Below are positions 49,329 through 60,286 of a stretch of DNA of 64,000 bases, in pieces. The notes under the pieces are model-generated. The model ran no database searches, had not been told where the DNA came from, and saw only the letters and a program-made list of their open reading frames with translations. The position numbers were made by a program, and so were the translations under genes. How positions within the stretch are numbered: position 1 is the first letter of the stretch; each line of letters opens with the position of its first letter. The stretch spans positions 1 to 64,000 of the forward strand of contig JAUSBK010000010.1 in assembly GCA_030652115.1 (NCBI GenBank). The letters are read 5' to 3'. This stretch comes from Coriobacteriia bacterium (GTDB lineage: Bacteria > Actinomycetota > Coriobacteriia > Anaerosomatales > Anaerosomataceae).

Positions 49329-50227
49329 ACGAACGCGTCTCACCCGAAACCCTGGTCGATGAGTACCTGACCCATCTTCGGGTCGAGCGTAACCTCTCCC
49401 CGAACACGCTCAAGGCGTACGCCGAAGACCTCTCCTCGTTCCTCTCGTGGGCCGACAGGGAGGTTGTCCACCCGCTTGACGTGGATCACCGGCGTCTTCG
49501 TCGATACCTCGCCGAGCTGGATCGTGCCAAGTACGCGAAGCGTACGATCGCCAGACGGCTCGCGGCTGTCCGCTCCTTCTACCGGTATCTGGTCATGCGC
49601 GGCTATGCATCCGGAAGTCCGGCGGCCGTTCTTTCGACTCCGCGGCTGCCGCGTGAGCTGCCGTCCATCGCTCCCGTGCAGTTGCTGAACGACCTCCTCG
49701 ACACGCCGGACCCCGCCACACCCCTCGGGCTTCGAGACCGGGCCATTCTTGAACTGCTGTATGCCACGGGAGTCCGCGTTTCGGAGCTGAGCGGGCTCGA
49801 CCTCGGCGATGTCGATCTCACCGGGGGCACGATCCGCGTTATGGGCAAGGGTTCCCGCGAGCGCGACGTGCCGATGCACCCGGCTGCCGTCCGGCGCCTG
49901 CGAGAGTACCTCTCGGGAGGACGCACCGCACTCCAGGGATCAAGCTCGGGAAGTGCATTCTTTCTGAACCGGCTGGGGACCCGACTCACCTCCGGCGGAG
50001 TGCGCAGGATGCTCGAGCGGCACCTCACGACGATCGGTGCGGCCGCGCAAATCACCCCCCATGACCTGCGCCACTCGTTCGCGACTCACCTGCTGGAGGG
50101 TGGCGCGGATTTGCGCACGGTGCAGGAGTTGCTCGGCCACGTTGCGCTCTCAACCACCCAAATCTATACTCACCTGAGTACGAAACACCTGCGTGATGTA
50201 CACAAAGGGGCGCATCCTCGGGCCTGA
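49325..50227 (+). CDS. xerC: Tyrosine recombinase XerC/XerD family
   Basis: Resolves chromosome dimers at dif. The 300-residue protein has the N-terminal SAM-like core-binding domain (LRVERNLSPNTLKAYAEDL) and all catalytic residues: Arg in ATGVRVSEL, Lys in GKGSRER, H-x-x-R in HDLRHSFATHLL, His in LGHVALS and the nucleophile Tyr in TTQIYTH. It follows trmFO with an ATGA overlap, as xerC/codV does in Firmicutes. The coupled operon position argues against a phage integrase. Confidence 0.95.
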   Translation: MNERVSPETLVDEYLTHLRVERNLSPNTLKAYAEDLSSFLSWADREVVHPLDVDHRRLRRYLAELDRAKYAKRTIARRLAAVRSFYRYLVMRGYASGSPAAVLSTPRLPRELPSIAPVQLLNDLLDTPDPATPLGLRDRAILELLYATGVRVSELSGLDLGDVDLTGGTIRVMGKGSRERDVPMHPAAVRRLREYLSGGRTALQGSSSGSAFFLNRLGTRLTSGGVRRMLERHLTTIGAAAQITPHDLRHSFATHLLEGGADLRTVQELLGHVALSTTQIYTHLSTKHLRDVHKGAHPRA

Positions 50228-50243
50228 TGGAGGGCCACACCGA

Positions 50244-51035
50244 ATGAGATCCGACTCCAGGACGGACCTTGCTGCCGCGTGGGCAGCGTTCAAGCACGAT
50301 GGAGACCCTGAAGCCCGGGAGAACCTCATACTCACATACTCACCCCTGGTGAAGTACGTGGCAGGCCGTCTTTCGTCAAGTCTCCCGCAGACGGTCGACA
50401 CCTCGGACCTCATCTCATACGGGGTGTTCGGGCTGATCGACGCGATCGAGAAGTTTGACACCGACCGTGGGATCAAGTTCGAGACCTACGCGATCGCCCG
50501 CATCAAGGGCGCCATCATCGACGAACTTCGTGCCATGGACTGGGTCCCGCGTTCGGTGCGTGCACGCGCGAGGGAGTTCGAGGCGGCGTACGTGGCTCTC
50601 GAGAATCGTATGAAGCGCGTGCCGGACGACGCCGAGGTCGCAGCCGAGATGGGCGTATCACCCCGGGAGTTGCAGGCCATCCTGGCCAAGCTGAGCTACG
50701 CGTCGGTCATCTCGTTCGAGGAGATGTGGTCAGGCGGCGCTGAGCGCGATGAGCATCAGGATCCGCTCGGTGCGATCGCCGACGAGCGGGCCGAGGATCC
50801 GGTCGACGTGTTCGAGAGCGCCGAGGTCAAGGAGATCCTCTCGGGCGCGATCGAGCGGCTTCCCGAGCGGGAGAAGACGGTTGTGGCGTTGTACTACTAC
50901 GAGGGCCTCACGCTCAAGGAGATCGGCACCGTGCTCGGCGTCACTGAATCACGAGTGAGCCAGCTACACACTAAGGCCGTTCTCCGACTTCGGGCACGTC
51001 TTCATGCCGCTCAAGGGTTCGTACCTGCAACATAG
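50244..51035 (+). CDS. RNA polymerase sigma factor of the WhiG/FliA (sigma-28) type
   Basis: A 263-residue group 3 sigma factor with region 2 (LVKYVAGRLSSSLPQ, DLISYGVFGLIDAIEKFD, FETYAIARIKGAIIDELR), region 3 (VPRSVR to LENRMKRVPDDAEVAAEMG) and region 4 (LPEREKTVVALYYYEGLTLKEIG). FliA controls motility and WhiG sporulation in different lineages; no flagellar gene is in this window, so the regulon is open. ATG at 50244 follows GGAGGG; it lies 16 bases after xerC. Confidence 0.94.
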   Translation: MRSDSRTDLAAAWAAFKHDGDPEARENLILTYSPLVKYVAGRLSSSLPQTVDTSDLISYGVFGLIDAIEKFDTDRGIKFETYAIARIKGAIIDELRAMDWVPRSVRARAREFEAAYVALENRMKRVPDDAEVAAEMGVSPRELQAILAKLSYASVISFEEMWSGGAERDEHQDPLGAIADERAEDPVDVFESAEVKEILSGAIERLPEREKTVVALYYYEGLTLKEIGTVLGVTESRVSQLHTKAVLRLRARLHAAQGFVPAT

Positions 51036-58971: not shown

Positions 58972-59029
58972 GTATGGCGCGCGGCTTGCTCGCCAGTGTG
59001 GGTACGTTCATCTCCGGACAGGAGTTCAG

Positions 59030-60286
59030 ATGCCGGCGTCGCTTGGAGCACTAGAAACCGCCCTCTGGGGCATTGCCACGTTCTCCATACTCGTGGTTCT
59101 GCACGAGATGGGGCACTTCCTCGCCGCGCGTGCGTTCGGCGTGAAAGTCCACGAGTTCATGGTCGGTCTTCCCGGACCGTCGCTTCGGCTGCACACCAAG
59201 AACATGGACTGGGGCGTCACCGCAGTGCCGCTCGGCGGATACGTGCGCATCGCGGGCATGGAACCAGGTGCCGAGGACGAGTTCCTCGGCGAGGCGCTCG
59301 TTGCTGTCAGAGACCGCGGGCCGCTCGACGCTACAGCGCTTGCTGCCGACATCGGCGTCTCCCAAGTGCGTGCGGAGGCGATACTCGTCACGCTTGCCGA
59401 CTGGAAGGCGGTCTCTGCCGGCGACGACGATCGCTACACGCTCACCGTTGACGGCGACATCCACTGGCTCGATGCGACGGGCCTCGCGGCTCAGGCGCGC
59501 AAGGTGACCTACCGCGGCCAGTCCACACCCAAGCGCATCGCGATCCTTGCTATGGGCGTCATCACGAACCTTCTCGTGGCCATCCTCACCTTCACGATCG
59601 TGCTGTCGGTGTGGGGCTACTACGACCAGACCACGCGGATCGATTCGATCGGGGAGGGCACCCCGGCCGAGGCGGCGGGCCTCCGTGTGGGAGACACGCT
59701 TGTGGCGCTTGAGGGAGACCCCGTCGAGCGCTGGGACGAGTTCCAGCTTGCGATGAACGCCACCGCCGCGGGCGACACGGTCACCGTGACCGTCATGCGT
59801 GCTGGAGCTGAGCAGGACTTCCCGGTCACGCTGGCCGAGCGCGATGGTCACGGCTTCCTGGGAGTGGGCCCGACGAGCGTGCCCGTGAGGCCGAGCGTCC
59901 TGGAGAGCCTCGGCGAGAGCTTCCGCTACGTAGGCCTCGTCTTCCAGACGATCGCGCGGCTGTTCGACCCCTCCACCTTCCAGGGGACCGTGAAGTCGTT
60001 CACCGGCGTGGTGGGCGTGTCGGTCCTGGCACAGGAGGCAGCGGCTGCCGGGGCGCTGTCGTATGCAGGTCTCATCGCGATGCTGTCGCTCTCGCTCGGC
60101 GTGATGAACATCCTGCCGATCCCACCGCTAGATGGCGGCAAGATCGTCCTCGAGATCGTGGAGCGGCTCATGGGTCGCCCGCTCTCCCGGGCGGTCACGC
60201 TCGGGTTCAGCTCTGTGGGTGCGGTGCTACTCTTCTCGCTTATCGGGTACGTGATGTACCTGGATATCCTGCGCTACGCAGTCTGA
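59030..60286 (+). CDS. rseP: Site-2 intramembrane metalloprotease (RseP/RasP family) with inserted cytosolic domain
   Basis: A 418-residue membrane protease. HEMGH at residues 25-29 and Asp368 in PPLDGGK give the zinc site, and a PDZ domain occupies about 200-280. Between the first and second membrane segments there is an extra stretch of roughly 70 residues (about 80-150). Part of it, residues 87-140, reads like a small winged-helix fold: helix, turn and helix (LDATALAADIGVSQVRAEAIL) followed by beta-like RYTLTV and DIHWL. ATG at 59030 follows CAGGAG. Between dxr and ispG, as in many Gram-positives. Family members cleave anti-sigma factors and leftover signal peptides. Confidence 0.92.
   Translation: MPASLGALETALWGIATFSILVVLHEMGHFLAARAFGVKVHEFMVGLPGPSLRLHTKNMDWGVTAVPLGGYVRIAGMEPGAEDEFLGEALVAVRDRGPLDATALAADIGVSQVRAEAILVTLADWKAVSAGDDDRYTLTVDGDIHWLDATGLAAQARKVTYRGQSTPKRIAILAMGVITNLLVAILTFTIVLSVWGYYDQTTRIDSIGEGTPAEAAGLRVGDTLVALEGDPVERWDEFQLAMNATAAGDTVTVTVMRAGAEQDFPVTLAERDGHGFLGVGPTSVPVRPSVLESLGESFRYVGLVFQTIARLFDPSTFQGTVKSFTGVVGVSVLAQEAAAAGALSYAGLIAMLSLSLGVMNILPIPPLDGGKIVLEIVERLMGRPLSRAVTLGFSSVGAVLLFSLIGYVMYLDILRYAV

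Follow-up and report, generated by a model that had tools for sequence, protein, structure and literature searches.

A winged-helix insert in the RseP-type site-2 proteases of Coriobacteriia, with a possible role in protein docking

The stretch of Coriobacteriia DNA analysed here (the window, 64,000 nucleotides) contains an rseP gene whose product is clearly predicted from its sequence to be an RseP-type site-2 protease (Table 1). It scores 187.3 bits against the RseP family TIGR00054 (curated cut-off 147.55) and 164 bits against Peptidase_M50, and both zinc-site motifs, HExxH and N..PxxPxDG, are present, with H25, E26, H29, N360, P363, P366, D368 and G369 invariant in an alignment of 78 sequences; the invariant columns around the LDG motif in this alignment are P363, P365, P366, D368, G369 and G370. 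A match to PDZ_2 (E 8.8e-12, residues 204-268) places the PDZ domain between TM2 and TM3, and the structural model agrees. The gene is located between dxr and ispG and is followed by proS, with identical neighbours in Collinsella; the Listeria neighbourhood is also like that of the source genome, without ispG. Because the gene order dxr-rseP-ispG-proS matches that of relatives, we regard the window rseP as an ordinary orthologue. It encodes the sole full-length homologue in its own genome, three other matches being confined to the PDZ region.

Table 1. Features of the rseP gene of the window and of its product.
Feature	Position	Strand	Basis or remark
rseP gene	59030..60286	+	418-residue site-2 protease, MEROPS M50 type, one PDZ domain
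AGGAG, likely ribosome-binding site of rseP	59020..59024	+	Sequence
HEMGH zinc-binding motif, residues 25-29, in TM1	59102..59116	+	H25, E26, H29 invariant
Membrane-reentrant beta loop, residues 40-74	59147..59251	+	Predicted model
Inserted winged-helix domain, residues 82-140	59273..59449	+	Model, structural matches, profile
Winged-helix H1, residues 86-96	59285..59317	+	Model
Winged-helix H2, residues 101-108	59330..59353	+	Model
Winged-helix H3, 'recognition' position, residues 112-124	59363..59401	+	Model
Asp124-Trp125, end of H3, near-invariant	59399..59404	+	Alignment of 78
Beta wing, residues 128-138	59411..59443	+	Model
Helix before TM2, residues 149-157	59474..59500	+	Model and conservation
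Extracytoplasmic PDZ domain, residues 197-285	59618..59884	+	Family match and model
LDG motif, residues 367-369, third zinc ligand	60128..60136	+	Invariant neighbouring columns

The loop between TM1 and TM2 is unusually long. Counted between the H of HExxH and the N of GxxxN, the motif with which TM2 opens, it spans 155 residues in the window protein, 154-167 in its own order, 154-156 in three further Coriobacteriia families and 167-195 in the Coriobacteriales, against about 77-94 in other classes of the phylum, where there are two exceptions of 108 and 127 residues (the latter at L111). The excess over relatives without the insert is some 70 residues and lies between the reentrant beta loop and TM2. 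A preliminary description of this DNA, made from the letters alone, had placed a winged-helix-like insertion at 59267-59480; coordinates and frame are correct (residues 80-150 of the open reading frame 59030-60286), and the helix-turn-helix-like stretch that it quoted, LDATALAADIGVSQVRAEA, lies at residues 99-117. Its excess of about 70 residues is also right, but the absolute loop lengths from which it was derived, 105 residues here and 35 as the usual size, are too small. In the AlphaFold2 model the reentrant loop has strands at residues 40-45, 51-55, 60-64 and 71-74, and the winged helix is predicted to begin about 10 residues past the last of these. After the helix that precedes TM2, ordinary RseP sequence resumes, with R157, Y161 and R169 conserved. 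The Coriobacteriales (L081-L083, L086-L096), and they only, carry a second well-conserved segment, some 38 residues long, that separates the wing from the pre-TM2 helix; its pattern is like ARDxxLLTEYDRGHDFSxPGSTxxGEP, and it has no family match.

A full-length AlphaFold2 model, built from the 78 aligned sequences, has a mean pLDDT of 91.7 and a pTM of 0.82. The insert belongs to the most confident regions (pLDDT 92-97) and is predicted to form three helices and a two-stranded wing; modelled alone, it adopts the same fold. A Foldseek search with the insert gave no match with E < 0.001, as expected for a domain of 60 residues, and VIA-align and sequence profiles were therefore used. The closest structures in VIA-align are all winged helices, led by 4kmf (Z 9.2, 1.2 A over 59 residues) and including ESCRT-II (2zme and 3cuq, Z 8.6) and FtsK-gamma (2ve8, Z 7.9). 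Among curated winged helix-turn-helix families the best match of the window insert is HVO_A0261_N (21 bits, under the cut-off of 35), and among 62 inserts the matched families include MarR_2 (21/62), TrmB (18), IclR (15) and FtsK_gamma (14), with a best E of 2.8e-7; in a genome-wide MarR_2 search RseP inserts of several relatives (G003, G005 and G007) exceed the curated cut-off. A match of the insert to designed 'Cake' proteins was set aside as a repeat artefact (many 3-bit stretches). By the two routes of structure prediction and sequence profiles, it is as good as certain that the predicted fold is a canonical winged helix, so that what had been suspected from the letters is borne out by the confidence of the model and by its winged-helix neighbours.

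A winged-helix core profile made without the Coriobacteriales sequences is positive in all 93 Coriobacteriia RseP proteins, including that of Collinsella aerofaciens, with a minimum of 21.1 bits; the 93 loci include some genes twice, from two collections, and correspond to 78 non-redundant sequences. None of 45 RseP-type proteins from outside the class (Actinomycetia, other classes of the phylum, Listeria, Enterococcus and Acetoanaerobium) is positive, the maximum being 0.2 bits. Searched genome-wide, the insert profile hits RseP-sized frames in all 17 Coriobacteriia genomes; in other genomes the best matches, among those listed and compared, are at other, mostly longer frames (700-900 residues, FtsK-like) and not at RseP. 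The winged-helix insert is a trait of the whole class Coriobacteriia, to which Collinsella and other common gut bacteria belong; that it marks an entire class goes beyond the preliminary description. The simplest reading, and the most likely one, is a single insertion event before the Coriobacteriia diversified. With its high-confidence predicted fold and its conservation throughout the class, the segment is no chance helix-turn-helix look-alike. Within the order the insert has a mean pairwise identity of 0.45, against 0.35 for RseP's own PDZ domain, and the wing and linker (residues 131-150) are very variable (identity 0.17). The strongest class-specific mark of the insert is the pair D124-W125: position 124 is D in 69 and E in 6 of the 78 sequences, position 125 is W in 68 and Y in 6, and the same positions are variable in FtsK-gamma.

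Other lineages differ at this loop. The RseP proteins of Escherichia coli, Kangiella koreensis and Aquifex aeolicus (PDB 7w6x, 7w6y and 9j82) share the core, the reentrant loop, a PDZ region and the arrangement of four transmembrane segments, and the window protein matches them with structural Z scores of 25 (E. coli), 18 (K. koreensis) and 26 (A. aeolicus); they have two PDZ domains and no winged helix, whereas the window protein has one PDZ domain. The Rip1-type proteases of Actinomycetia (a label inferred from sequence and kinship) are of the same phylum and have the same catalytic core, but their loop is short and lacks the insert. The best overall structural match to the window protein is Bacillus subtilis RasP (PDB 9a6w, Z 27.3), and the RasP-type proteins of Bacilli belong to the same family and have a similar gene neighbourhood. 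In Listeria and Enterococcus these carry an insertion at the identical site, with loops of 162 and 164 residues against 155 here; it matches no helix-turn-helix family, and the Coriobacteriia insert profile reaches −2.0 bits at best in these proteins. The earlier remark that such an insert is not recognised in RseP, RasP or Rip1 proteins is therefore accurate for E. coli-type RseP and Rip1-like proteins, but in Bacilli the RasP-type proteins contain an equally long insertion. Since this insertion is same-sized and same-placed but unrelated in sequence, the TM1-TM2 loop appears to be a recurrent insertion point whose contents differ by lineage. EcsB, considered as a partner family, was found in none of 19 Coriobacteriia genomes; RasP function in B. 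subtilis depends on EcsA (PMC10128001), and RasP-EcsA is not mentioned in a structural-proteomics paper checked for the pair.

The variety of insertions at this site (those of Listeria and Enterococcus, and that at L111) would suit a neutral passenger, an old insertion tolerated in a permissive loop and having no function of its own. We can hardly credit this for the winged helix, which is kept in every Coriobacteriia member examined and within the order is conserved beyond the PDZ domain.

The preliminary description had suggested a substrate, a sigma factor or even DNA near the membrane as what the insert could bind; the first two may hold. The insert has the fold of DNA-binding winged helices, and part of the class shows a likeness to the gamma domain of FtsK, likewise a winged helix: own-order inserts resemble this DNA-reading domain in a profile match to 2j5o (E 5.7e-4, the best among solved structures) and in hhalign (E 1.7e-9, 56 gapless columns), with a common D-x-L(L)-x-x-A start, and the invariant arginine R37 of FtsK-gamma corresponds to R114 here, kept in 49 of the 78 sequences. 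Reciprocal matches with FtsK-gamma were obtained in Coriobacteriia genomes. Nonetheless, R37 is the only one of the invariant FtsK-gamma arginines R29, R37, R40 and R60 with a counterpart in the insert, the GSxxR wing is absent, and the FtsK_gamma family cut-off (PF09397, 30.6 bits) is not reached, the best RseP inserts scoring 20.8 (G025) and 20.7 (G003). Under controls this likeness does not hold up as proof of an origin from FtsK-gamma: MarR and IclR profiles come close (39.8 and 40.9 against 49.1), FtsK-gamma is the nearest winged helix for the own-order subset only, and Coriobacteriales-only or other-order inserts match MarR and IclR profiles equally well or better. In the source genome and several relatives across the phylum, ftsK (G000:C10:96545) lies some 20-40 kb from rseP.

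The charge of the insert also argues against DNA binding. In each of the 78 sequences the core (residues 82-140) carries a negative net charge, which is not a surface map, and a low net charge is compatible with a small basic patch; the window insert core has a net charge of −7 and a pI of 4.1, and H3 averages −2.6 across the family. Per residue, the stretch between H1 and the first strand, both included, carries a charge of −0.071, compared with +0.038 in FtsK-gamma, which is basic, and −0.002 in MarR domains (p 5e-13 and 3e-8 respectively, indicative only as the sequences are related); the MarR controls were taken from Coriobacteriia genomes and the FtsK-gamma controls also from other genomes of the phylum. 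Because the core is acidic and the DNA-reading residues of FtsK-gamma are not retained, DNA binding by the insert appears unlikely and protein contact is the better guess. A role of the protein as a membrane-anchored regulator whose winged helix binds DNA near the membrane is accordingly disfavoured, and we consider it distinctly improbable.

From what was computed (the fold, its exact place, its presence throughout the class, its absence from the others examined and its acidity) we infer a function, and we incline to the view that the insert is a cytosolic protein-docking module, with a putative partner, beside the active site of an RseP-type protease. That it lies on the cytosolic side would follow from the known topology of RseP. 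The insert stands directly after the substrate-recognition loop, is acidic, has a near-invariant DW pair and is conserved beyond the PDZ domain; against docking, the conserved D-W may serve internal packing alone. The reentrant beta loop takes part in substrate recognition and cleavage (PMC4597795), and there is a partial parallel in SpoIVFB of B. subtilis, another site-2 protease that has an additional domain in the cytosol and uses a cytosolic region to bind a sigma-factor substrate: its cytosolic linker next to the CBS domain binds pro-sigmaK (PMC11486902), although the extra domain there is a C-terminal CBS domain and that of Coriobacteriia RseP is a winged helix in the TM1-TM2 loop. The dependence of RasP on EcsA and the unrelated insertion of Bacilli at this site are further points in favour of docking. 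We propose that a small winged helix was inserted into the cytosolic TM1-TM2 loop of an ordinary Coriobacteriia RseP, that it would no longer read DNA, and that it may serve for docking and positioning where the active site opens to the cytosol. Its ligand would be an adaptor or the cytosolic portion of a substrate, such as an anti-sigma factor in the membrane or the sigma factor held by it, and the docked partner would be ordered for strand addition to the reentrant loop and then cleaved. D124-W125 would be the most likely hot spot, or else the contact through which the domain is packed against the body of the protease.

Packing of this kind is central to another role, in which the winged helix would act as an intramolecular gate, lying on the reentrant loop and the pre-TM2 helix and opening or closing substrate access (auto-inhibition), possibly with coupling to the PDZ domain through TM2. 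The insert does sit between two parts that line the active-site cleft, strong conservation is seen at D124-W125 and, ahead of TM2, at R157, Y161 and R169, and the whole-chain pTM suggests some ordering. The high variability of the wing and linker, together with the tolerance in Coriobacteriales of some 38 more residues after the wing, argues instead for a loosely attached domain, and we think a gate unlikely.

The insert might also be a dimerisation module, the winged helices of two RseP molecules pairing on the cytosolic side as in O-methyltransferases. Weak matches to the O-methyltransferase 'Dimerisation' family (PF08100, E 0.11; 4 of 62 members) and to the N-termini of BchU and other methyltransferases point this way, but many DNA-binding winged helices score equally, and O-methyltransferase dimerisation domains use additional helices that are missing from the RseP insert, which makes this role improbable.

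For the docking module the leading candidate partner is an anti-sigma factor or its sigma factor, and the source genome encodes seven sigma-70-type factors. An ECF sigma gene (L275, G000:C10, ~343470-345000) is followed by a gene for a membrane protein with a single transmembrane segment and an HxxxCxxC-like segment (HSESCREC), the N-terminus of which has a weak 'anti-sigma factor' match (E 5.5e-4, below the curated cut-off); judged by these features it is a candidate RseP substrate and not more. Searches of this genome with zf-HC2 and RsgI_N gave nothing over cut-off, and zf-HC2 misses the HSESCREC protein. The more specific proposal, that the winged helix is a class-wide docking site for sigma or anti-sigma factors through which the protease would recognise the cytosolic half of its substrate before cutting, is put forward tentatively and we regard it as doubtful.

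Two further sigma-factor loci are recorded here. A second ECF sigma gene (L273, G000:C1, ~106500-107800) is followed by one for a membrane protein whose DUF5667-like domain scores just short of the cut-off (E 8e-6); this may be an anti-sigma type not yet recognised. The window itself contains, at 50178-51032, a 285-codon frame for a sigma-28/WhiG-like sigma factor with a response-regulator-like frame directly after it.

No paper joining RseP and Coriobacteriia was found, and among papers on site-2 proteases and winged helices none seems, judged from title and abstract, to report a domain of this kind. The winged-helix RseP is a real domain variant within a known protease family and, as far as these searches show, one without a prior description. 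How RseP-type proteases choose their substrates is still debated, and attention has centred on the PDZ domains outside the cytoplasm and on the reentrant loop. Recognition of sigma or anti-sigma factors by the insert, if true, would be a second route of recognition, in addition to the reentrant loop and the size filter of the PDZ domain. For a partner search the insert provides bait that is soluble and compact, at about 90 residues. More generally, the TM1-TM2 loop appears to be a place where lineages add different cytosolic domains, a winged helix in Coriobacteriia and another domain in Bacilli, and if the docking role is true, substrates would be selected also from inside the cell in a class that contains common human gut bacteria.
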